IMG/VR virus record: IMGVR_UViG_3300047551_000463
Span: 1 to 33,060 of that record
From: a virus
Reading direction: 5' to 3' (one strand)
DNA: 33,060 nt
Positions 1 through 33,060 of the stretch are shown in pieces. The translations under genes and the position numbers were made by a program. Positions within the stretch are counted from its first letter, which is position 1, and each line of letters opens with the position of its first letter. The notes beneath the pieces are model-generated. The model saw nothing but the letters and a program-made list of their open reading frames with translations, was not told where the DNA came from and did not search any database.

Positions 1-2294
1 CTGCAAGGCTTTTGTATAATAACCAAATATTGCGTATATGTACCGCCGTCAACAGTAACAGTTAAAGGGAAAGTGTTAACCCTTTGTGATTGCCCCGTGT
101 GTGAAGTTATACTAAACGAAATAGTCTGTTCACCCGTTGGCGTAGTGTCGTTAGGTGTTGCAAACTGAGTTTCATAAGGACTGCCGATAGTTACAGTAAA
201 TCCATCAGGAACGCTGAAAGGAATGTCTAAAGTCTGACTAGCACAGCTGACCGTATAAGTACCGCCAAACTCTTGTGAGTCTCTCCAATTAGATATAAGT
301 ACGAAATCAACTACACCCGTGGTTAGGTCGGTCTTCATTTCGTTAATGGCGTACTTCTTATCCCTTATTATTAGATTATCGTTTAGTTTAAGGCTTGTAA
401 GTACTCGTAAAGGTAGTTTCGTCTTTACATAGACAACTCTAGTTTTTGGATCGTATAAGTTTTGAATATAAGGCTCGTAGTAAGTCCTGTAAAGAGTATT
501 ATTTATTACGCTTAACTCAAAAGAACTAATTTCAGAACCCCAATTCAAAGTGTACGTCTCGTTTGAGTATCTTGTGTCTTGCCCAAACGGTCTGTAAGTA
601 GTCAGTAAGTTATTTGTTGAACCGTCATTTAAGTAAAAAGATACATCCGTTGTTTGGTGGTCGTACCTATACAAAACCATTGGCTTAGGGATGTAATTTT
701 TATACTCTGGTTCAGTACCTAAACAATAACCGACTTGTAATTGTGTGTCTGTGAATTTAGAATGCAGTATGCTTTCAAAAGGTAGTTTAATAGTGTAGTC
801 TCCACCATCATAATCAAAAGCAGCACTTAAATTACCGTATTCCTTTCTAAATAAGTCGAAAAACTCCCTATTCATAAAAGACTGCGACTGCTCCCACTCA
901 AAATTGATGTTCTTATACAATTTCGGGCGTTCTACCGTTATATCGTCTTCGATTACATAGTTTGTTATGTCTCGTATCAATCCAGTATTGTAGAACGTCT
1001 CTAATGGCTCAAACCTAAAAGTAGTAGTGTCGGTAGCGTAACACGTTAGATTGAACATATTAACAACACCGTTAATAAAGTCAACTATCTTCATGTCGGG
1101 TGCTAGGCTTTTTAAGTCAGTCTGTGCAACCGTAGAAAGTGAAGTGTTAGATGTGTCCGTGTATGTGTCGGTAAAGTCATCCGAGCCCGTGCCAACATCC
1201 ACTAGTGTATAATCAATGTCGTAAGTTACCGTACAGCTAAAAGTCATTGCTGACGTTGAACGTAAGTAAAAAGTAATGTCCTTTGAACCATTAACGCTTA
1301 ATGATAAGTTACTTATTGCGTAAGCATCGAATATTTGCGCCCCGTTACCCTCAAAACTCATCAGGTAATCACCGTTTTCATAAACGTCTAGGAAGTAATC
1401 AATACTTGAACCCGTGTTTATCTCTACTGTGATAGAATGAACGAATGAAGATGCCGAGGCTAAGTCATAAGGGGCAACAACGTAAGCAGCCCTAGCCGCC
1501 TCGTCTAAATATCTTATCTGAACAGTATCGTTATACAAGTAATCAGTACTTACACCCGCCTCGCCGAACTCTAGTTGTTTAGGCTTAGAATAGAATGTGA
1601 ACTGTTCTTTGTTCTTAAACCATAGATAAGCGTTTTTAAATTTGTCGTTATCTAAAAACGAACCTGTAAACGTTACGTTGTACTTCGTTTCTATGTCGTC
1701 GAATATAGACTTAATCCTAACGGCGGGGAATAGATCAGTATAACTTATTGCACCTCCCGTTGTGCTTATGTCGTTCGTTGTAGCATCTCCATACTGCCAA
1801 ACAGTACCCGAACTAATTAAGGGGTAGTGTACATCATAGTCAGTAGAATCTTCCACCCTATTTTGTACCTCTGCACCTGAATAGTTGTGGTTTAAGGAAT
1901 CGTAGTCTAGGTCGAAAAGCTTGTCTTCACCTATTAGGTCTTTTAACGTAACTACGTCTCCGTAGAATGTTACTTTGTAGTTTTCGGCATATCCGTTTTT
2001 TAGTTGACCGCTTTCTATCTGAATTTTACCAGTCCTGAACGGTATAGTGTCTATCTCTATTCGTGCAGAACGTCTTACTTGGTGGTCTACGGTATTATCT
2101 ACGTCGTTGTTGTAGTAGTGTTCAAAGATATAGTTATTCTGCCTAGAACAAGGGATAGTGAAACTTTGCGAAAAGTCCGTAAAGACCTTACCTATATCTG
2201 AGATGTTTTGAACGGTAGAAGTTACCTCTATCTTTTCGTCATTGAATAACTCTAACTCTAAATTCTCAACAAATATTTGAACCTTTCTATACAT
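1..2294 (-). CDS. Large tail protein, C-terminus off the left edge
   Basis: An open frame starts with ATG at 2294 and runs without a stop to base 1: 764 codons plus two bases are visible. The N-terminus (MYRKVQIFVENLELELF) leads into a segment with DIGKVFTDFSQSFTIP and NNYIFEHYYN around residues 33-65, a pattern I associate with large tail/baseplate proteins of Bacteroidota phages. The remainder is beta-rich, with many Thr, Asp, Tyr and Asn. The ATG overlaps the stop of the preceding gene by 8 nt (AATGTATAG). Position after the chaperone, gp10-like and 354-aa genes supports a distal tail role. Exact function (baseplate hub, tail-associated protein or fibre support) is not resolvable. The stop lies outside the window. 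Confidence 0.8.
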   Translation of the reverse strand, partial: MYRKVQIFVENLELELFNDEKIEVTSTVQNISDIGKVFTDFSQSFTIPCSRQNNYIFEHYYNNDVDNTVDHQVRRSARIEIDTIPFRTGKIQIESGQLKNGYAENYKVTFYGDVVTLKDLIGEDKLFDLDYDSLNHNYSGAEVQNRVEDSTDYDVHYPLISSGTVWQYGDATTNDISTTGGAISYTDLFPAVRIKSIFDDIETKYNVTFTGSFLDNDKFKNAYLWFKNKEQFTFYSKPKQLEFGEAGVSTDYLYNDTVQIRYLDEAARAAYVVAPYDLASASSFVHSITVEINTGSSIDYFLDVYENGDYLMSFEGNGAQIFDAYAISNLSLSVNGSKDITFYLRSTSAMTFSCTVTYDIDYTLVDVGTGSDDFTDTYTDTSNTSLSTVAQTDLKSLAPDMKIVDFINGVVNMFNLTCYATDTTTFRFEPLETFYNTGLIRDITNYVIEDDITVERPKLYKNINFEWEQSQSFMNREFFDLFRKEYGNLSAAFDYDGGDYTIKLPFESILHSKFTDTQLQVGYCLGTEPEYKNYIPKPMVLYRYDHQTTDVSFYLNDGSTNNLLTTYRPFGQDTRYSNETYTLNWGSEISSFELSVINNTLYRTYYEPYIQNLYDPKTRVVYVKTKLPLRVLTSLKLNDNLIIRDKKYAINEMKTDLTTGVVDFVLISNWRDSQEFGGTYTVSCASQTLDIPFSVPDGFTVTIGSPYETQFATPNDTTPTGEQTISFSITSHTGQSQRVNTFPLTVTVDGGTYTQYLVIIQKPC

Positions 2295-3351
2295 TGTTTA
2301 TGACGTAATTAGAGTAATCAAATTCGATGTTATAGTTAATTAACTTATCGTTGATGTGTTTGTTAAATGCAATAGACTTGGTTCGTATTTTCGCGGGTTT
2401 AGCGTTTACTAATACTTTCTCACTAAGTAATAATTGTTTTAACGTATTTTCGTTGTAGTCCTCATCTACCCAACCCGTATTACATGAGATATACTCTTTA
2501 CCGTTAGCGTTGAATACCTGAAACTGACCGTTAGACGTATCGTAGTCAATGTCTTGCATTAAGTAATACTCCGTGTTGTTTACCTCCATGTTTTCACGGG
2601 ATGCTTTAAACATAAACGTCCTTTGCCAATGTCCATACTTATTCACGAAGTCAATCACTACGGGAGTGTATTTACATTCTTCAATAGGTTTAAAATAGAA
2701 TGTAGCCTGAACAACCGAAGAGCCGTTTTTGATCTCTAGCTTATTACCGTTAGGATAGTAGTTAGTACCTCCCGACTTATACACCGCCGTAGGTCTTACC
2801 AATGAATCATTAGTTAAGTTAATAGTAGATGTTCCCGCTGTAACAAGGTCAGTATAAACAGCAGTCCAACTTGTACCCGTCTTTACGCAGACCTCACCCG
2901 CCCTGTTAAGTTGAGTAGAAGCTAAATCATTATTAGCATCGTACCAATAGTAATAAGTCGAGGGTGTCGCAAGGATAGAGCCTAAATCGGGGTTATAGTC
3001 CTGTGAGTAATATCCATACCCATCTAACACTTCTACGTTCGATGTCGTGCTTTGTAATACGCCGTTCTTGTATTTTTTAATGGTCACGAAGCAATATTCA
3101 CTACCCGCTTTTGGAGGCGAAGAGTTAGTGGCGGCACTAGTAAAACTAGAATAAGCAATATACTCACGTAGATAAGGCGAAATGTTGTAACTGCATGAAG
3201 TGATAATGCTTGACGGTATAGGCTTACTTAAAGTGTAAGTAGGTGTCAATGGGGCTGACGCTGGGTCATTCCAAATATATAGTTCTACGCTTGTGTCGTC
3301 ATTTGCCGAACCTGACTGCGTAACGTAATAAGGTGAACGTGCGAAAATCAT
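2287..3351 (-). CDS. Tail structural protein, 354 aa
   Basis: Encodes a beta-rich 354-aa protein with many Tyr, Thr, Ser and Asn, and no signal peptide or membrane segment. The N-terminus (MIFARSPYYVTQSG) and a segment near residues 235-250 (VVIDFVNKYGHWQRTFMF) resemble a Bacteroidota phage tail protein type found next to the large tail protein; I recall the pattern but cannot name a family. It begins 4 nt inside the end of the gp10-like gene (ATGA-type junction at 3348-3351) and its stop overlaps the next start, so it is translationally coupled on both sides. Likely a distal tail or baseplate component, inferred from position and composition. Confidence 0.7.
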   Translation of the reverse strand: MIFARSPYYVTQSGSANDDTSVELYIWNDPASAPLTPTYTLSKPIPSSIITSCSYNISPYLREYIAYSSFTSAATNSSPPKAGSEYCFVTIKKYKNGVLQSTTSNVEVLDGYGYYSQDYNPDLGSILATPSTYYYWYDANNDLASTQLNRAGEVCVKTGTSWTAVYTDLVTAGTSTINLTNDSLVRPTAVYKSGGTNYYPNGNKLEIKNGSSVVQATFYFKPIEECKYTPVVIDFVNKYGHWQRTFMFKASRENMEVNNTEYYLMQDIDYDTSNGQFQVFNANGKEYISCNTGWVDEDYNENTLKQLLLSEKVLVNAKPAKIRTKSIAFNKHINDKLINYNIEFDYSNYVINNV

Positions 3352-3851
3352 AATTTATTCAATGTATATGCTAAGAAATCGTCTATCTCTAATCCGAAAG
3401 CCTCTACTATATCGTCTGAAACTTTCTTGAACTCTTTGTTGAAAGGCTTAGTGAAAAACAAGCTAGGCTTTAGTCCATTTCTGAATATTGATCGTGCAAT
3501 AAGAAACTGCAAAGACTTTCTGCTTACAAACCTTCCCTTTTCATCTTTACCCATTCCCTTTCTTACTATCCACTTATCTAACTTACTTGGCGGTGGCATC
3601 TTGGTTGTATAGGAGAAAGGTGTTTTATATTTCTTCCGTGTTCCGCTAACCCCCTTATCTACAAACTCACCGTAATCACCTAGCGTAAACGATAACCAAA
3701 AGTTGTTAGTCTTGTAAACTTCTAGCTCACCGTCAATAGAGTTAAACAACCTACCCGAAGACTTTTTGCCTTGCCGTGCAAGTTCTTTCTTAGACTCAGC
3801 TATTACTTTGTCTTTGAATCGTTCTAACTCCTGTTTAACGTTGTCTAGCAT
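3348..3851 (-). CDS. HK97 gp10-like tail completion protein
   Basis: A 167-aa protein with a basic, helical N-terminus followed by GDYGEFVDKGVSGT near residues 58-71. This resembles the hallmark of HK97-gp10-like neck/tail completion proteins, an aromatic residue then (V/E).GT followed by a Pro-rich loop (here KMPPPSKL). The family joins the tail to the head connector. Length and basic character fit. The start lies 17 nt inside the end of the -1 frame chaperone extension, so ribosomes finishing the fusion end next to this ATG. Tail completion is the best call; a minor tail protein is the alternative. Confidence 0.65.
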   Translation of the reverse strand: MLDNVKQELERFKDKVIAESKKELARQGKKSSGRLFNSIDGELEVYKTNNFWLSFTLGDYGEFVDKGVSGTRKKYKTPFSYTTKMPPPSKLDKWIVRKGMGKDEKGRFVSRKSLQFLIARSIFRNGLKPSLFFTKPFNKEFKKVSDDIVEAFGLEIDDFLAYTLNKL

Positions 3852-4092
3852 TTCTTTTTAATAGTTTCCTTTCTAAGTCTTGTTTCTGTTTCTCAAACGT
3901 TAGGTAGGTAAGACAAGCGGATAGTGGAAGCCTTGTAACTTCTTCAAACCTTCTAAGGTCTCCGTGAGAGATTGCATAGATGCTTTGATACCATCCCCAT
4001 TGTTTACCGAACTGCTCTTCTTCTGTAAATCCGTCACCTCCTCCTGAATATAACTTAGGGAAAGCTGTAATAACTCGTTCCCTAAATGATAA
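3835..4092 (-). CDS. -1 frameshift extension of tail assembly chaperone (gpGT-like part)
   Basis: This frame is open from a TAA near 4185 to the TAA at 3837-3835, yet contains no ATG, GTG or TTG codon. From the T-run it encodes 85 residues beginning LSFRERVITAFPKLYSG and including EEQFGKQWGWYQSIYAIS, GDLRRFEEVTRLPLSACLTY and a basic C-terminus ending KRNARQR. The protein-like composition (paired Trp, amphipathic helices) and resemblance to a segment I recall from Bacteroidota phages argue that it is translated. Slippage at 4092-4098 would join residues 1-163 of the upstream frame to these 85, giving a 248-aa fusion. By analogy with lambda gpGT, the fusion would recruit tail tube subunits to the tape measure. 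Frame and absence of starts are seen; the role is inferred. Confidence 0.72.
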   Translation of the reverse strand, partial: LSFRERVITAFPKLYSGGGDGFTEEEQFGKQWGWYQSIYAISHGDLRRFEEVTRLPLSACLTYLTFEKQKQDLERKLLKRNARQR

Positions 4093-4580
4093 AAAAAAAC
4101 AACTGCGCCCATTACCACGTCTAGTGGCGCATACTTCATTACATCTGAGTAATTCGCTGTTCCTTCGTATTGCTCTATCAGGTATTTACCGTCTTTCTCT
4201 TTGGTGATAGGTCTGAACATTACCGCCATGGCTTTGTTCATGTTTTGCCAGTCTCCTATGTTGTTTTCTAAGTCTATGTATTCACCGAACTCCATAGCCT
4301 CTAACTCAGGAATAAAAGCAAAATCCTTGCCACCGAGTTTAAATCGGTTAGTGAACTTCTTTTCACCTTCAAACAATTTGTTTAAATGGTCGCTTACTTC
4401 TATTACTGACTGAGCGTTAATTCTTAGCACGTGGCTTAAAGGAATCTTACAGAATATAGAAAGCATCTTTTGTCTTATGAATTCGTCTGAGTCCGTGTTT
4501 TCATATACACGCATAAACGCCTGATATTGCTCTAGCGTTATGTCGTTAAGTGAACTCGGCACATTGATTTCGACTTTCAT
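3900..4580 (-). CDS. Tail assembly chaperone, zero-frame product (gpG-like)
   Basis: A 226-aa soluble protein whose first ~60 residues are helical (SLNDITLEQYQAFMRVYEN), followed by FRPITKEKDGKYLIEQYEG at about 122-140. The C-terminal third (from residue 164) overlaps the -1 frame extension. Tail assembly chaperones precede the tape measure gene and often make a short and a frameshifted long form; this gene shows that architecture with a T9 slip site at codons 162-163. Both frames beyond the slip look protein-like, so the zero-frame tail is probably also genuine. The neighbours, terminase upstream and gp10-like downstream, fit a tail morphogenesis module. Identity is inferred from architecture and position. 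Confidence 0.68.
   Translation of the reverse strand: MKVEINVPSSLNDITLEQYQAFMRVYENTDSDEFIRQKMLSIFCKIPLSHVLRINAQSVIEVSDHLNKLFEGEKKFTNRFKLGGKDFAFIPELEAMEFGEYIDLENNIGDWQNMNKAMAVMFRPITKEKDGKYLIEQYEGTANYSDVMKYAPLDVVMGAVVFFYHLGNELLQLSLSYIQEEVTDLQKKSSSVNNGDGIKASMQSLTETLEGLKKLQGFHYPLVLPT
4092..4098 (-). promoter_or_regulatory. Slippery heptamer for -1 ribosomal frameshift
   Basis: On the minus strand nine consecutive T occupy 4099-4091. Zero-frame reading is GTT TTT TTT TAT, so T TTT TTT at 4098-4092 is an X XXY YYZ slippery heptamer. After a -1 slip the next codon is TTA (4092-4090), entering the long open -1 frame. The site is at codons 162-163 of the 226-codon gene. I did not fold the downstream RNA. 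A purine-rich stretch (GGAGGAGGTGA) lies about 48 nt downstream, an unusual distance for a stimulator. Confidence 0.7.
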
Positions 4581-4592
4581 ATTTAAATAACT

Positions 4593-4772
4593 TTAATTCT
4601 TGCTTTTGTATAACATGACATGATCATAACAGGCAACTAACGCTTTGAAGTGTAACCTGAACCGCATAGGGTCGTCAAAGATTATCTTTACACGTCTTCC
4701 TGTGCGGTGGTAAATATACCATTCCACTACCGCTACATATTCATCTAGGTTAATATATTGAGTATTTTCCAC
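4593..4772 (-). CDS. Small protein, 59 aa, GTG start
   Basis: The gap between the terminase and chaperone genes holds a 59-codon frame opening with GTG at 4772, 23 nt before the terminase stop. A TAG lies five codons upstream and no other canonical start is available before the GTG. The product (MENTQYINLDEYVAVVEWYI at its N-terminus, later DDPMRFRLHFKALVACYDHV) has the balanced composition of a real protein and fills the gap almost exactly. No family recognised. A GTG start overlapping the upstream stop fits the dense coupled arrangement of this genome. Without the gene the gap would be about 170 nt of unexplained sequence. Confidence 0.55.
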   Translation of the reverse strand: MENTQYINLDEYVAVVEWYIYHRTGRRVKIIFDDPMRFRLHFKALVACYDHVMLYKSKN

Positions 4773-5955
4773 GATTAGGGTTTTCTAATTGATAAGTAAT
4801 AGCATATCTTAACGCATCAATAGCGTGGTTAAAGTCGTCTATTGGTGTTTTAGATTTTTTCTCTAACCATGAATAGTTATTTAACTCTTTGTGTAGATCA
4901 ATGCTTTCTGGGTCTACTATTATATCGTAGTCTTGAAGTAATGCTATACCATGTGTAACAGAGCCTTGACCCTTAACGGCTTCAACTATGTTTATTCCTT
5001 TTGCTTTAAGTTCTGCTATTAGCCTTGGTTCTGCACTATCAGCAATTATCAAACTATCTTTTGCTATTCTTTTGTTTATAGATTCTATTTCAGATGTTAC
5101 TAAGCCTTCCTTATACAAGTGTAACTTAACGTATATCTTTTGTCCGTCTTTATCTATTGATGTTTCAACTAATGTGGTCGGGTCTTTACTGAATCCAAAG
5201 TCTTGACCAAACACAGACTTGCCTACCTCTTTAAACTCACCTATTGACCAGTTACTAAATATAACACCCTCGGCTTTATCTAGCCATCCACCAAGAATCT
5301 GATGCTTGTATTTTTCAGGTCTTCTTTGCTTTATGCTTTCTATTTGCCTAAGGTAACTTTCCGAAAGGTTGTCTATGTTGTCTAAATATGTAGTGTGGAT
5401 ATACGTCGTATCTTCTTTTATACCATTAAAACCACCTTCAACACCCTTACCCTCAAAAAAACGCTGATAAATGAAATGTTCTTTAGTTGTAGGGTTCAAT
5501 ATAAGCACGACCCTGTTCGTCATTTGCTTGTGACGTATAGATAGGTCTATTTTATCAAATGTGTCTTCGTCGGTTAATTCTTCTGCCTCATCTAACACCC
5601 ACGTAGTAACACCCGTTAAAGACTTTAAGTTGGCAGTCTGATCACCGCTAGATGTTTTTATACCTCTAAATATTATCCTACTACCTGTTAGCTTGTTTAT
5701 TATTTCGTCTTTTGTTATGTGGAAGTCCTGTTTCCTTCCTAGTATCTCTATCTTCTCTAAAAACTCAGGTATAATTGAAATATGAGCAGATGCCATTGTG
5801 TAGCGTGTAAACAAAATAACATGACCCGACTCATAAGTTAATAGAGAAAGGATCATGTTTACAGAGTACGACTTACCAGAACCACGACCACCCGTCACAA
5901 CAAAGTAGCGGGTGGGATTCTTAAAGGCATCTACATACTTATCATTTAGAGCCAT
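4750..5955 (-). CDS. terL: Terminase large subunit (TerL)
   Basis: A 401-aa packaging motor. Walker A is GGRGSGKS at residues 22-29 and Walker B is WVLDEAEEL at 119-127, with the acidic pair expected of terminase ATPases. The C-terminal half carries RNase H-like nuclease signatures: GQDFGFSKDPT near 250, LIIADSAEPRLIAEL near 300, and DDFNHAIDALRYAI near 380. Length is typical of the compact TerL type (Terminase_3/Terminase_6-like). It pumps DNA into the prohead through the portal and cuts the concatemer. It overlaps the small-subunit gene by 14 nt. Unusually, it is far from the portal gene (25923-27680) in this linear order. Confidence 0.96.
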   Translation of the reverse strand: MALNDKYVDAFKNPTRYFVVTGGRGSGKSYSVNMILSLLTYESGHVILFTRYTMASAHISIIPEFLEKIEILGRKQDFHITKDEIINKLTGSRIIFRGIKTSSGDQTANLKSLTGVTTWVLDEAEELTDEDTFDKIDLSIRHKQMTNRVVLILNPTTKEHFIYQRFFEGKGVEGGFNGIKEDTTYIHTTYLDNIDNLSESYLRQIESIKQRRPEKYKHQILGGWLDKAEGVIFSNWSIGEFKEVGKSVFGQDFGFSKDPTTLVETSIDKDGQKIYVKLHLYKEGLVTSEIESINKRIAKDSLIIADSAEPRLIAELKAKGINIVEAVKGQGSVTHGIALLQDYDIIVDPESIDLHKELNNYSWLEKKSKTPIDDFNHAIDALRYAITYQLENPNRGKYSIY

Positions 5956-14272: not shown

Positions 14273-15595
14273 TTATTTATTGTTATACTTTTCTAAAGCG
14301 TTTTTCTTTTTTAAATTTTGATCCTTTGTCCTAGATGCCCCCATGTATGTCATTGAAAAGTCGTTTTTCATTATCGTTATACATACAGCTTTCCAGTTAG
14401 GGCAATGCCTAAATGGGGTTGCTCCGTCTATTATTATTTCGTCAGGCCATTCTCCTTTAATCTTAATTATTTCATAAATATCATCTTTTTTACAAAGTTT
14501 ACTGATATCGGAAGTATGCTCAATGACTACACCAGCGTCTTTAATTGCCTGAATTACTCTTGGATTCCTTCCGTAGCCTTTTTCTGTCCAAGATTTTTTC
14601 AAGCGACTTAGTGCAGCCTTAAACTTTTTTCCCGTACTTTCTGGAAGCGTTGAAATTAAAAATTCTGCATATTCTTTCCAAGTAAAGTGTGATGGCTTTG
14701 TTATTTTCTTCCACCCCATTGCCGAAGTCCCGCCGTATATACCTCCGAAATTGCATCCGTTTACTCTCCCTACCATTTTACCCCAGCTATTAGGGTCAAT
14801 TACGCGGTATAGCTTTAAGCTATCCTGCCCACATTGATGGAATGGACTGGCTACACGCATTTGATCTATAGTTAGACCAGCCTGATAGTATAAATCATAT
14901 ATCTTATTGTAGTCCCATCCAAACTTTGCGTTGGCTATCCATATGTCTTTTGTTTCCCAATCGTATATAGGGTAGAAGTTGCAGGTTGTATTATTGACCG
15001 TTTTAGTGTAAGATAATCCGTTGTGCATTTCACTCCTATGCTTTGATGTAAATATAGCCTGACGTGACAAACTCTCATCAGCTCTTAGACCTACCATTAC
15101 CGCTGTTGTGCCATATGTTTCTGAGAACCACTCAGCAAACTGAATACGCGCATCAAATCCCTTAGTACCTTTTATGAACTTATACGGGCAATTGTCAATA
15201 TTTACCACACAATCCAAATTTGGCATAGGGCGCACCCAAATGTCTTTTTTGTCCTTGTCCCAAGGAATCCATCTTGGCTCGTACATTGATACCGAACAGG
15301 CGGCTGAATGTGGAAGGCATAGCCAGAATTTACGCGGTATGTCCATTTGTGAAAATACCCTTTCGGCGTATTCGTGTGTGTAAATGTACCCTGCTTCATA
15401 ATCTTGATAGTATAACGCTAACTTGTGAAGTAATCCGTTCTTCTTAGCGTATTCATAGCATAGGTTAAGCATAACGCCAGAATCCTTTCCACATGAAAAA
15501 GCTACCAGAACATTATCGAAATCTCTAAAGGCAACCTTAATTCGCTCTAATGAAGCGTCATAAACATTTTCAGTTCCATACTTTATCATAACCAA
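14273..15595 (-). CDS. IbrA-like PAPS reductase-family protein (DUF3440-like)
   Basis: A 440-aa protein whose N-terminal PP-loop VAFSCGKDSGVMLNL (31-45) binds ATP in the PAPS reductase/ATP-sulfurylase fold. YYQDYEAGYIYTHEYAERVF follows, then the IbrA-type segment ACSVSMYEPRWIPWDKDKKD. The C-terminal third (from about 270) has NGCNFGGIYGGTSAMGWKKI and CPNWKAVCI, consistent with DUF3440. True PAPS reduction seems unlikely in a phage; DndC shares this fold and acts in DNA phosphorothioation. A start at the second Met (residue 3) is equally possible. It overlaps the 89-aa gene by 10 nt. Confidence 0.85.
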   Translation of the reverse strand: MVMIKYGTENVYDASLERIKVAFRDFDNVLVAFSCGKDSGVMLNLCYEYAKKNGLLHKLALYYQDYEAGYIYTHEYAERVFSQMDIPRKFWLCLPHSAACSVSMYEPRWIPWDKDKKDIWVRPMPNLDCVVNIDNCPYKFIKGTKGFDARIQFAEWFSETYGTTAVMVGLRADESLSRQAIFTSKHRSEMHNGLSYTKTVNNTTCNFYPIYDWETKDIWIANAKFGWDYNKIYDLYYQAGLTIDQMRVASPFHQCGQDSLKLYRVIDPNSWGKMVGRVNGCNFGGIYGGTSAMGWKKITKPSHFTWKEYAEFLISTLPESTGKKFKAALSRLKKSWTEKGYGRNPRVIQAIKDAGVVIEHTSDISKLCKKDDIYEIIKIKGEWPDEIIIDGATPFRHCPNWKAVCITIMKNDFSMTYMGASRTKDQNLKKKNALEKYNNK

Positions 15596-23473: not shown

Positions 23474-24901
23474 TTATGAAAGTGTTGTTCCTGTTACCGT
23501 GAATGTTCTGCAAGGGATGTATTCAGCAGCCGCAGATGCTTTATTGAAAGCACCCATTGAACCAGTCCCTGTTGAAGCTAACACAAAAGCGTTAGCTGTT
23601 ACTATGTTGTTTGTTGTACTTGTCCAAATGTTTGTGTCAGCCGTGATGCTGAAAGGTGCATAATTCAATACAGATGTTGCTACACCGTGATTTAAAATAC
23701 TGAATAGTTCACCTCTATTTGGAAGCCTCCAACCAGTTGCGAAACCGCCAATACTTAAAGCAAGGGCATTATCAATAGCTGTATTCCAATCGGTATATCC
23801 TGTACTTTTTGTTCTCCTCCACCCTAACACCGTTGAACCGTCAAATGTAGACCAATCAATAACGATAGTATCCGTGTACGTTTGACCTCCCGCTGTGTCC
23901 GTGAATCGGTTGGTGTTACCGAAAGGATTGTTTGACGAAAGAACTAAAAAAGATGTTGCTCTACCCGCTTCAATATCTCCGTCATCTCCTGTTCTGTAAG
24001 ACGTTGTTTGGTTCGTCTTCATTAGCTTTGCGCCAACAGATGCGGCAGGTGGAGGATTGGGAACTGTTACAACAACTGAACCGCCCGAAACTATCGAACC
24101 GCTTTGTATGTCAGTCCCGTTGGCGTATTCTACTAAATAAGTTGCATCAGGGGCCGTTATATTTGCGCTACTCTCTGCGTTAATAGAAGTTGTGCTAATA
24201 GTTGCTCCCGCTGTTGTTTTTAATACCGCTGTGCTGTCTGCAATAACTTGGTTTGAACTGCCTTCAGCATTAACTGAAAGCGTATAAAGAGTATTATTTG
24301 AATCGTCTTTGATAGTTACCGTTGAATCAGCTATCACTTGTGTGTCTGTCGCACCACTTGGGATAGTAAGACTGTAAAGAACATTTCCTGAATCGTCTGT
24401 AATGTTAATAGTAGCGTCTGCACATTCAACCCTAGTAACCAACCCGTCACAGGCGGTCATATCGTTAGGTATTAATACATCGAATGTAGCAGCCCAACCC
24501 GCCAAGAAGTTTTCAAACCTTTCAGTAAATGGCTCTAAACTTGGGTTTCCGTCTAACTGATAATACTCCGAATATAAAGACCCCCTTCTCAACACTTCTA
24601 AAAGCCTGTTAAGAACCGCCAACTGAGTATTTAATACATCGTGTTCGTTGTCGTTACCTAAGAAAGCATCCGTTATTTCGTCGTTGGATTTGTCTACTAT
24701 ATCCATTGCCAGAACAGTCATGTTAAACCGCCAAATGTTGTTCTCTAACGTAGCGTTATTTACAATGATGTGACTAAGCGGAAATATAGTCTGTTTCTTA
24801 AGGTCAACTTCAAAGATGTCACCGATTGTTACCGTGTTACACATCGGATCAGTTAACAACTGGTCTTTAATGGCTGTGGTTATGTTGTAAAACCCCGTCA
24901 T
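23474..24901 (-). CDS. Tail-terminator-like protein fused to repeats and DUF1566 domain
   Basis: A 475-aa protein. Residues 1-150 (TTAIKDQLLTDPMCNTVTIG, then LEVLRRGSLYSEYYQL, RFENFLAGWAATFDVLIP) look like a tail terminator/completion protein. About 155-290 holds at least three related beta units of about 30 aa (NITDDSGNVLYSLTIP; TIKDDSNNTLYTLSVNAEGS; VLKTTAGATISTTSINAESS). The C-terminal ~130 aa are DUF1566-like (GWRRTKSTGYTDWNTAIDNA; TGWRLPNRGELFSIL; NIWTSTTNNIVTANAFVL). DUF1566 folds can be C-type-lectin-like, so it may bind a receptor. The modular fusion is unusual. No DGR reverse transcriptase is in the window. Confidence 0.72.
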   Translation of the reverse strand: MTGFYNITTAIKDQLLTDPMCNTVTIGDIFEVDLKKQTIFPLSHIIVNNATLENNIWRFNMTVLAMDIVDKSNDEITDAFLGNDNEHDVLNTQLAVLNRLLEVLRRGSLYSEYYQLDGNPSLEPFTERFENFLAGWAATFDVLIPNDMTACDGLVTRVECADATINITDDSGNVLYSLTIPSGATDTQVIADSTVTIKDDSNNTLYTLSVNAEGSSNQVIADSTAVLKTTAGATISTTSINAESSANITAPDATYLVEYANGTDIQSGSIVSGGSVVVTVPNPPPAASVGAKLMKTNQTTSYRTGDDGDIEAGRATSFLVLSSNNPFGNTNRFTDTAGGQTYTDTIVIDWSTFDGSTVLGWRRTKSTGYTDWNTAIDNALALSIGGFATGWRLPNRGELFSILNHGVATSVLNYAPFSITADTNIWTSTTNNIVTANAFVLASTGTGSMGAFNKASAAAEYIPCRTFTVTGTTLS

Positions 24902-30097: not shown

Positions 30098-30682
30098 TTA
30101 TTTTGATAGTTTAGCAAAAACACGATCCAAAGCGGATTCCTGTTTTTTAGTTGAAAATTTAAATACTTCTTTTTGTGCTACTGGCTCAGGGTTGTGAACG
30201 ATAGGTTCAGCAGCGGGTTCATCTGAAGAAAGTTCCACTTCGTCTTTAGGCTGAAGTGCAGCTAGTTCCGCTTTCAGCTTTTCGATTTCAGCAGCTTGTT
30301 CTTCGATTTTTGAAAACACCGTTTCCTTAACGATGCTTTCGATTGTGCGCTTAGGCTGTGGTGCAGTAGGCTCGGACATTTCAGCAGGAACTTCAGCAAC
30401 AGGCTCTTCTTCCGTTGGCTCTTCCGCTGCTGCTTCTCTGATTTCTCCGATAATACCTTCTTTAACCACTACCAAAACACGTCCGTCCACAAGTTCGTAT
30501 TCTCCGACAGGCAAAGCAATTTGAGCATCTTCAGTAACAACAAAAACAGGTTGTCCAACCTCAAAAACTTCAGCTTCGATAGTTGTCACCCCGTCAGGTA
30601 GTACTTGTTGCTCCAATTTCACTTCGATAGCCTTCAATCCGATTTTGCGCAGGATTTCGTTTGCTTGTTCGATAATGTTCAT
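30098..30682 (-). CDS. Probable capsid scaffold protein
   Basis: A 194-aa acidic protein. Residues 1-80 form a beta/mixed domain (IEAEVFEVGQPVFVVTEDAQ; LVDGRVLVVVKEGIIGEI). The centre is Glu/Pro/Ala-rich (AAEEPTEEEPVAEVPAEMSE), then a heptad-like helix (FSKIEEQAAEIEKLKAELAA) and a basic C-terminus (FKFSTKKQESALDRVFAKL). The acidic coiled coil and basic tail adjoining the major capsid gene match scaffolding proteins that guide prohead assembly. It may be processed by the XkdF-like protease. Confidence 0.7.
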   Translation of the reverse strand: MNIIEQANEILRKIGLKAIEVKLEQQVLPDGVTTIEAEVFEVGQPVFVVTEDAQIALPVGEYELVDGRVLVVVKEGIIGEIREAAAEEPTEEEPVAEVPAEMSEPTAPQPKRTIESIVKETVFSKIEEQAAEIEKLKAELAALQPKDEVELSSDEPAAEPIVHNPEPVAQKEVFKFSTKKQESALDRVFAKLSK

Positions 30683-30740
30683 AAAGAATTTAATTGGTTA
30701 TCAAAGTAAATAACTCAATTAAAAACGTTCTGTTGTATTT

Positions 30741-30881
30741 TTAACCGTTAGTAGAAGTAATTATACGTGTGGTATCCGTGTTTGTGACGGTAGATGAACC
30801 TTGGTTTACTAGGCTTCCTAGACCTTGCCCTTTTGATTGTTTAAGGTAGTCTTCTAACTTTGGTTTTTTAACCTTACTCAT
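30741..30881 (-). CDS. Small virion-type protein, 46 aa
   Basis: ATG at 30881 overlaps the stop of the 40-aa gene (ATGA, 30878-30881) and runs 46 codons to TAA at 30741. The product begins MSKVKKPKLEDYLKQSKGQG and contains LGSLVNQGSSTVTNTDTTRI. A basic N-terminus and Ser/Thr/Asn-rich C-terminus fit a minor phage structural protein. Coupled position makes it likely. Confidence 0.55.
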   Translation of the reverse strand: MSKVKKPKLEDYLKQSKGQGLGSLVNQGSSTVTNTDTTRIITSTNG

Positions 30882-31000
30882 ATAGTATCTGTTAATAGCG
30901 TGTCACCACTCCATGAAGATGTGTAAACGCTTCCAAAGTTCGACTGTGTATAGGCATACCCCCAATAGATGCCGTTATTTACTGCTTGTCCCCAATACAT
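30878..31000 (-). CDS. Small aromatic virion-type protein, 40 aa
   Basis: ATG at 31000 starts 3 nt after the stop of the beta-helix gene and runs 40 codons. The product, MYWGQAVNNGIYWGYAYTQS followed by NFGSVYTSSWSGDTLLTDTI, repeats the motif YWG..VNNGIYWG and resembles small Trp/Gly/Asn repeat proteins in Bacteroidota phage structural regions. It has an ATGA overlap with the 46-aa gene. Probably a minor virion component. Confidence 0.6.
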   Translation of the reverse strand: MYWGQAVNNGIYWGYAYTQSNFGSVYTSSWSGDTLLTDTI

Positions 31001-31003
31001 ATC

Positions 31004-32221
31004 TTATCTTATTTCTGTTACTACAAAGTTTAACTGATCTACCGTAATATTTCTCGCACCACTTGTATTTCTGCAATGAATCTCTAAATAATCGTTAGCC
31101 TTCATGGTTACTACGCATGAGAAAGCCACATTCTCGGCGCGACCTGAAGCATTGGCTGTTGCCTTAGTTCTTGACGGTGTTCTTAATGTCGCTAACTGAC
31201 TATCGTAAAAACCGAACTCACAGATGTCATTCGCCGAAGACGTAAACGATAGTACGCATTGTATTAAATACTTTCTACTGATTACAGCGTCACATGTTAA
31301 TCTGTTGTTAGAGTGGCTAAATTTAGAGTTGTCAGCACTAGCCGTTGTTGTACCCGCTACTTTATAGAACGTGTTTTGAACGCTTACAGTCGTAGCCGTG
31401 ACGTTACCCTGCATATACAACTGACCATTTACCGCCGTATTGGTTATGTTAGTACAGTTAATAAACAAAGCATCGTTAGATGTGTGCGTAATACCACTTA
31501 GATAAGTACCGCCACCACCGAAGTTCACCGTGTCTAATATATAAGCCTCAGTCGGTATTGTAGCCGAGGCGTTAACGTTAATTCCTGTTTCACCACTAAG
31601 CACAACAAATGAAGAGTAGATAACTCGGAAACGTCTTGTAATTGTAAGCGTAGCGGGTAGGATAAATGTAGTAGTCGCTGAACGCCCATCGAATAGACAT
31701 TGAGAAAATCCTACCGTTCCGATAGTCCCGTCAAACGTCAACCCGCTAGAGTTAAGAAAAGCACTATCTGCCATAATAAAGTTGGAATAGTCTTTAATCG
31801 TACCTACTACGGCACAGTCTGTAAAGTTAACACCAAACCAGTCTAACGCCGTGGTAGTTCCGTCACCGTCTAAGTTTAACGCAAGTGCCGCTTCTATCGT
31901 AATGTTACGCATAGGTAACGAATAGTTCGATGTTATTAACGCTTGAGTTAACCCCGTTGACTTAATACGGCAATTCTCGGAAGACCCCCCTAAGATAGTG
32001 GTGTTCTGACCACATACCAACCTATCACCTAAAAGATCAATGCTATTAGTAAAAAAGTATGTAACATTGTCGGCTAAAGTAATCACCCCGCTAGATGGGG
32101 TGGGTAAGTCGTCTAATGATGCAATGAAAACTACGTCACCCGTTGTTAGACCCGAACCGCCGCCACCGCCTGTAAAAAAGCCCTCTAGCTGTTCAACCCT
32201 ATATTCTATTGATTCTCTCAC
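31004..32221 (-). CDS. Beta-helix tailspike-like protein, 405 aa
   Basis: A 405-aa protein. Residues 1-16 form a short helical N-terminus (MRESIEYRVEQLEGFF), then a Gly-rich hinge (TGGGGGSG). The main body about 30-270 has repeating beta strands with TIEAALALNLDGDGTTTALD, SAFLNSSGLTFDGTIGTVGF and TINVN-type turns, like a right-handed beta-helix (pectate-lyase-like) fold. The C-terminal ~120 aa (LTCDAVISRKYLIQCVLSFT onwards) look like a separate beta sandwich. It overlaps the protease gene by 4 nt. Likely receptor-binding or depolymerase; catalytic residues are not visible. Confidence 0.65.
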   Translation of the reverse strand: MRESIEYRVEQLEGFFTGGGGGSGLTTGDVVFIASLDDLPTPSSGVITLADNVTYFFTNSIDLLGDRLVCGQNTTILGGSSENCRIKSTGLTQALITSNYSLPMRNITIEAALALNLDGDGTTTALDWFGVNFTDCAVVGTIKDYSNFIMADSAFLNSSGLTFDGTIGTVGFSQCLFDGRSATTTFILPATLTITRRFRVIYSSFVVLSGETGINVNASATIPTEAYILDTVNFGGGGTYLSGITHTSNDALFINCTNITNTAVNGQLYMQGNVTATTVSVQNTFYKVAGTTTASADNSKFSHSNNRLTCDAVISRKYLIQCVLSFTSSANDICEFGFYDSQLATLRTPSRTKATANASGRAENVAFSCVVTMKANDYLEIHCRNTSGARNITVDQLNFVVTEIR

Positions 32222-32793
32222 TTAATCAATCCTAGAAGTTCTTCTAATACTTTTTCAGCGTCAGTTTTAGACTGAAGTTGCTCAAAACCGTCAAACATTC
32301 CCTCAATCGAGAACCCTTTGTACTTGCCTTCCTTTACTTCTTTCCAGACTTCGTCGTTATATACTTTAGTCATAATAACCCATTCGCCACCCTCAGGTTT
32401 CAGGTTGTATAGGTTTGATTTGTCTTGTTTAGGGTCTTCAACTACCCAACTTTCTATTACTGATATGCCTTCCGTCTTTTGCTCGTGTTCTAATGTCCAA
32501 TTCTTTAGGTTAAGTTGCTTCATAAACAACTCGGCAGTTTTAGCAACCGTATCTTTAGAAAAGTAGATGTTAAACTCTTTACCCTGCATCACTCGGTAAA
32601 TTCTCTTTTCAGGAACTAAGGCAAAACCAACTAAGATTCGTTTATCTTCGTCAACTACTTTAAGTTCCACTTCGTGTTTACTTAGGGCAACAAAGTCCTC
32701 TTCAATAGCGGGTGATTCAACAAGTGAAATAGCGAAAACACCGTCTTCTGCTTCGTCTTTTATCTTTAGTTCTATGTCTTGTAGATTTTTCAT
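32218..32793 (-). CDS. XkdF-like prohead serine protease
   Basis: A 191-aa protein with FAISLVESPAIEEDFVALSK (20-39), KRILVGFALVPEKRIYRVMQ (51-70), FNIYFSKDTVAKTAELF, WTLEHEQK and ISVIESWVVEDPKQDKSNLY. This series matches XkdF/prohead protease proteins (ESPAI, G.AL.P...IYR, YFSK.T, EH, ESW.VEDP) that mature the capsid by trimming scaffold and shell. The His (about 99) and Ser are candidate catalytic residues. It is upstream of the scaffold and capsid genes, as in many phages, with a beta-helix gene inserted between. Confidence 0.85.
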   Translation of the reverse strand: MKNLQDIELKIKDEAEDGVFAISLVESPAIEEDFVALSKHEVELKVVDEDKRILVGFALVPEKRIYRVMQGKEFNIYFSKDTVAKTAELFMKQLNLKNWTLEHEQKTEGISVIESWVVEDPKQDKSNLYNLKPEGGEWVIMTKVYNDEVWKEVKEGKYKGFSIEGMFDGFEQLQSKTDAEKVLEELLGLIK

Positions 32794-32808: not shown

Positions 32809-33060
32809 TTAAAGTGTTGCTGTTTTTATTCTGTTACGATCTAAACTTTGTGCAGACGTTACCTCGCTACTTACCACGTATGCTTGTACTGGCGCAGACG
32901 TTAAGCCCTCCACGATTTGATTAGTACCCGAATTACCTACTATATTAAAGTTAGCCGCTGTTGGCTGTGGTAAACTTGGCGCACCCGTTCCGCCACCACT
33001 TGCAGAACCGCCACCTTCAAATTTCTGCGAAGCAATAGACTTTACCTTTGCAAGACCTGA
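32809..33060 (-). CDS. C-terminus of tape-measure-like tail protein (partial)
   Basis: The last 83 codons of a gene that enters from the right edge. Motifs include AKVKSIASQKFEGGGSASGG, ANFNIVGNSGTNQIVEGLTS, APVQAYVVSSEVTSAQSLDR and NRIKTATL. The PVQAYVVS.EVT.AQSLDRNRI ending is what I recall at the C-terminus of Bacteroidota phage tape-measure or long tail proteins. Its stop (32809) lies 15 nt before the protease ATG. The start is outside the window; if the genome is circular the gene continues from beyond the left edge. Confidence 0.72.
   Translation of the reverse strand, partial: SGLAKVKSIASQKFEGGGSASGGGTGAPSLPQPTAANFNIVGNSGTNQIVEGLTSAPVQAYVVSSEVTSAQSLDRNRIKTATL

Follow-up and report, generated by a model that had tools for sequence, protein, structure and literature searches.

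In the 33,060-nucleotide stretch of viral DNA analyzed here (the window), a gene at positions 3900 to 4580 on the minus strand appears to encode a protein that is made in two forms and is probably a tail-assembly chaperone of a Bacteroidota-type phage. The longer form, a fusion, is best explained by slippage of RNA polymerase at a run of nine thymidines (T9), and we assign this overall reading a probability of roughly 0.55. The zero-frame open reading frame (ORF) specifies the 226-amino-acid candidate short form, which matches phrog_32199 over residues 5 to 170. Its codons GTT TTT TTT TAT at 4100 to 4089 hold the T9 run (4099 to 4091), the putative slip site, and within that run the in-register heptamer T_TTT_TTT (4098 to 4092). 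An ORF in the −1 frame (3835 to 4092), the presumptive C-terminal domain of the fusion, is open for 85 codons from 4092 to 3838 and ends with a stop codon at 3837 to 3835; the upstream stop in this frame is at 4188 to 4186. Neither the 31 codons 5′ of the slip site nor the 85 codons after it include ATG, GTG, or TTG, and the −1 ORF is therefore reachable by frameshifting only. The predicted fusion contains 163 + 85 = 248 amino acids. The original prediction had given the same coordinates, the same 226-codon and 85-codon frames, and the same fusion length, and the absence of start codons that it described was confirmed between both stops of the −1 frame. All of these features, as well as the terminase and tail genes described below, are on the minus strand.

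On the basis of base composition, runs of at least nine Ts are expected about 0.7 times per window, and one T9 run by itself is little evidence; it is the conservation of the run and of the −1 ORF in the sequences of approximately 400 relatives that lifts it above chance. These family loci, each designated by L and a number, were gathered from IMG/VR, GTDB genomes, and named phages. For the 391 readable loci the run was exactly T9 in 385, T10 (by substitution) in five, and T8 in one (L273), giving at least nine Ts in 390 of 391, and the in-register heptamer was found in every one. The same T9 run is present in Nonlabens phages P12024L/S, a Flavobacterium sp. MFBS3-15 contig (31% identity), and a Psychroflexus MAG contig. 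No substitute slip site was found in distant relatives, every one of which has the T run. A comparison of 163 codon columns in 237 non-redundant homologues showed just three wobble positions without variation, those of T_TTT_TTT, and a DNA pattern scan that permitted TTC returned TTTTTT in 105 of 105 cases. The −1 offset was kept in 154 of the 155 loci of the first set. The exception, L068, has T10 (L068:958-968) and both domains in one frame, representing either a natural fused allele or an assembly homopolymer error. The proposals that conserved, programmed −1 expression occurs from the T run, that it yields a fusion product, and that the phage is of Bacteroidota type (the named relatives being the Nonlabens phages, the MFBS3-15 contig, and Bacteroidetes MAGs) are supported.

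The pattern of substitutions indicates that both frames encode protein near the slip site. Given the zero-frame protein, 5.7 stop codons would be expected in the −1 frame of the overlap and none was seen in any of 82 non-redundant homologues; the zero frame was open for at least 58 codons in the same 82 of 82, compared with a simulated median of 6. Diversity at the three codon positions was 0.35, 0.25, and 0.58 on the 5′ side of the slip site, which is the zero-frame pattern, was flat (0.29, 0.28, and 0.27) over the first 22 codons past it (4027 to 4092), and became 0.32, 0.22, and 0.44, the −1 frame pattern, beyond those codons. The flat profile points to selection on two frames over the first 22 codons, and the overlap does not evolve as it would under the zero frame alone, in agreement with the original prediction. 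The −1 frame dominates farther on, however, so the proposed 63 or so dual-coded codons are too many: strong double constraint spans about 22 codons, and the zero frame of the Nonlabens phages stops approximately 25 codons past the slip site. The zero-frame tail is nevertheless not wholly neutral, because only about 15% of simulations in which the first 22 codons were fixed remained open to 58 codons. Mean pairwise identity was 0.59 for the −1 protein versus 0.49 for the zero-frame tail. A structure model of the zero-frame protein had a pLDDT of about 90 over residues 11 to 165, a single helix at residues 153 to 188 that spans the slip point, and a poorly defined tail beyond it, which agrees with double constraint being confined to the vicinity of the slip site. 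The −1 domain was modeled as all-helical with a pLDDT of 77. Two rows from a phage record were left out of the input to the structure modeling.

Hundreds of homologues of the −1 product were recovered, in line with the original prediction, and their conservation starts at the slip site. Sequence comparison shows that there is a frameshifted product, that a frameshift is required to make it, and that nine or more Ts are conserved in the run. The annotation of the Nonlabens phages offers another view, in which two separately started genes exist without any frameshift: genes 40/41 of P12024L and 38/39 of P12024S (JQ823123, JQ823122) are listed in GenBank as two hypothetical proteins, with P12024L_41 starting at an internal ATG. 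This gene pair has the same T9 and neighbors identical in kind to those of the window, differing in that the zero frame ends about 25 rather than 62 codons past the slip site. We regard separate initiation as very improbable. An internal ATG close to the slip site is not a conserved feature, 196 of 234 homologues have no −1 start codon 5′ of the run, and −1 conservation begins right at the slip site. For the window, with its −1 frame devoid of the usual start codons, a separately started ORF is refuted, barring an unusual start codon. The split recorded in GenBank for P12024L_40/41 (L157:20001-20695), with its internal-ATG start, misses the fusion.

In the mechanism that we favor, most messages would be translated to the zero-frame stop to give the 226-residue short form. 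RNA polymerase stuttering at T9 would add one U in a fraction of messages, and the added U would bring ribosomes into the −1 frame to produce the 248-residue fusion, composed of residues 1 to 163 and the 85-residue helical domain. Translation of messages lacking one U would end almost immediately: the sequence ATC ATT TAG (4090 to 4082) places a +1-frame stop (4084 to 4082) at the third codon past the run when one U is deleted. A +1-frame stop directly 3′ of the run is present in 222 of 237 homologues, and this conserved stop may be a by-product of two-frame coding or a guard against one-base deletions.

What recommends the polymerase is the behavior of the run when its flanks change. In the 391-locus set, six of the seven members that had lost the first T carried extra downstream Ts, as did 18 of 18 such cases from a seven-T pattern scan, so that the run stays at 9 to 11; with both sets pooled, a run of nine or more was retained in 24 of 25 instances of flanking-T loss. 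Chance matches to the same patterns were mostly T7. In both members that had lost the last T, the run was shifted upstream and was again T9. At the frame junction, nine or more Ts are kept irrespective of codon register, as expected for transcriptional slippage, with one T8 exception. The last base of the heptamer, which is the eighth T of the run, could be C with no effect on the protein in either frame and with the ribosomal motif intact, and yet C was found in 0 of 219 homologues (58 expected) and in 0 of 105 from a separate pattern scan. Efficient slippage of bacterial RNA polymerase has been reported at runs of nine A or T, as has the use of nine Ts in Thermus thermophilus dnaX (PMC5009743, a review). 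Because nine or more Ts are kept although seven suffice for a ribosome, polymerase slippage is favored, and we infer that it is the polymerase and not the ribosome that slips; the ribosomal slippage at a heptamer proposed in the original prediction gives way to a requirement for at least nine Ts. Several considerations temper this view. About six loss-plus-compensation events are placed on the best topology, of which well-supported branches force only one; a sign test for independent compensation had too little support from the tree, and the events are possibly not independent. Protein chemistry could account for part of the compensation, with a bulky residue being retained next to FF, and the missing C may also be explained if UUC pairs too firmly for ribosomal slippage. 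Avoidance of T9/A9 runs in other genes was not clear, the signal being too weak to decide.

Ribosomal −1 frameshifting, in which two tRNA-Phe would slip back on U_UUU_UUU, would yield the same 226- and 248-residue products. Many phages use this mechanism for their tail chaperones (PMC5009743, PMC10885494), the heptamer is in register throughout the readable loci and accounts for all of the invariant wobble positions, and L273 retains the heptamer despite its T8 run. The window also has a hairpin, TTAGGGAA/TTCCCTAA (4055 to 4085), at a suitable distance 3′ of the slip site. This structure has a z score of −2.8 in the window but a mean z of 0.08 over 137 relatives; it is specific to this one phage and was rejected as a stimulator. 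A candidate nascent-RNA hairpin upstream was likewise dismissed, as it was not above expectation from the protein sequence, and among minimum-energy folds no conserved stimulatory structure was observed 3′ or 5′ of the run. Seven Ts would serve a ribosome, whereas the relatives hold on to nine or more; in-register T7 is common and unrestrained in other genes of these genomes; and U_UUU_UUU is a poor ribosomal shift site in Escherichia coli (PMC5009743). A ribosomal site also predicts, outside its strict definition, that its last base varies where silent, and this variation was not seen among the 219 homologues. Retention of the run, the missing C, and the lack of a conserved structure together make slippage of the ribosome the second choice to that of the polymerase, and we consider it possible but rather unlikely. 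The presumed hosts are described as seldom using Shine-Dalgarno signals (PMC8710568).

T. thermophilus dnaX resembles the window gene in having a nine-T run within the gene and alternative products of one DNA sequence (PMC5009743). The full-length product is in frame there, whereas the extended product here lies in the −1 frame and depends on a slip; slippage was measured for dnaX and is proposed here. Compared with lambda gpG/gpGT (PMC5009743), the phage gene shares a short form, a −1 fusion with a C-terminal domain, and a tail module 5′ of the tape measure gene. It differs in its slip site, a conserved run of at least nine Ts, and in its location directly behind the terminase large subunit (TerL) gene rather than between the tube and tape measure genes. 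As judged by sequence comparison, two overlapping ORFs appear to be linked through a conserved, programmed frameshift close to where the first one ends, and in the relatives the gene belongs to a tail block that precedes the tape measure gene, both of which characterize lambda-type chaperones. A two-form protein encoded within a tail block points to a tail-assembly chaperone, probably one of the lambda G/GT type. If it acts as gpG and gpGT do in lambda, the shared N-terminal domain would form a coat on the tape measure protein, and tail-tube subunits would be brought in by the minor fusion.

Gene order is clearest in Nonlabens phage P12024L, where TerL is followed by the slip gene, phrog_30964, phrog_29822, phrog_35281, further tail genes, and the tape measure gene; L162 and L163 share parts of this order. 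In the window, the upstream neighbor at 4750 to 5955 encodes TerL rather than a tail tube protein. On the other side of the slip gene are genes for a phrog_29822 protein (3348 to 3851; tail completion/Neck1-like, with weak phrog_5 and HK97-gp10_like matches of the P12024L homologue), a phrog_35281 protein of the tail block (2287 to 3351), and a phrog_38559 protein of the same block (3 to 2294) that is cut by the window end; in L163, the latter lies immediately 5′ of the tape measure gene. The C-terminal end of a probable tape measure protein (phrog_32985) is at 32809 to 33060, the remainder being past the window end. The contig break hence falls inside the tail block, the phrog_38559 gene (1-2294) running off the end opposite the tape measure fragment, and the greater part of the tape measure gene is absent. 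The phrog_30964 protein, which in relatives comes after the slip gene, is encoded elsewhere here, at 23474-24901, and carries a fused Lcl_C domain (Pfam E 7e-13).

The tail-module position of the original prediction stands, and the chaperone identity is a matter of likelihood because the gene is not between the tube and tape measure genes (in P12024L and L163, TerL is 5′ and several tail genes intervene) and has no characterized chaperone match in Pfam, NCBIfam, PHROGs, or a PDB fold search. In these searches no similarity to the characterized chaperones was detected in sequence or fold, and the one BFVD model labeled as a tail assembly chaperone was a weak match (E 0.08). These same observations, together with the adjacency to TerL and the distance of several genes from the tape measure gene, could be accommodated if the frameshift is real and the protein is another head-tail or tail component, such as part of a connector or initiator, whose longer form has a second domain. 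Members of the Duneviridae lend this idea some weight, since they have a related N-terminal domain in a single 293-residue ORF without a frameshift (Flavobacterium phage 2A, phrog_25418; hhalign probability 87%, with a shared GEYxD motif); the C-terminal part of that protein shows no detectable relationship. A two-form product with an all-helical C-terminal extension, encoded in a syntenic tail block 5′ of the tape measure gene, speaks against such a component, which we judge unlikely, and a tail-assembly chaperone remains the preferred identity. BFVD also matched the N-terminal domain of the slip gene to a protein of Flavobacterium phage 6H. The truncated 6H gp10 (L511:10048-10927) was rejected as a second case of frameshifting; its break is probably a sequencing indel because the 293-residue ORF is uninterrupted in relatives 2A and FPSV-F7.

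Elsewhere in the window, two ORFs in the 30098-32793 region match the front (32218-32793) and back (30098-30682) of phrog_24921 and are separated by a 405-residue ORF; the front-part ORF also matches head maturation proteases. A phosphoadenosine phosphosulfate reductase gene is located at 14273-15595 (phrog_2302, E 6e-99).

Tail chaperones are known to be expressed through programmed frameshifting, and the papers retrieved in a literature search described none with polymerase slippage; polymerase stutter in a phage tail gene would be unusual. The results provide a lead to the function of phrog_32199 and phrog_38404, each listed as unknown, and permit better annotation of hundreds of phage genomes whose present records overlook the fusion. 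On balance, we favor the view that a large lineage of Bacteroidota-type phages makes a tail-assembly fusion by programmed polymerase slippage, with the stutter setting the ratio of the two forms. If confirmed, this would mean that another machine generates the same two-form product across a widespread group of phages.
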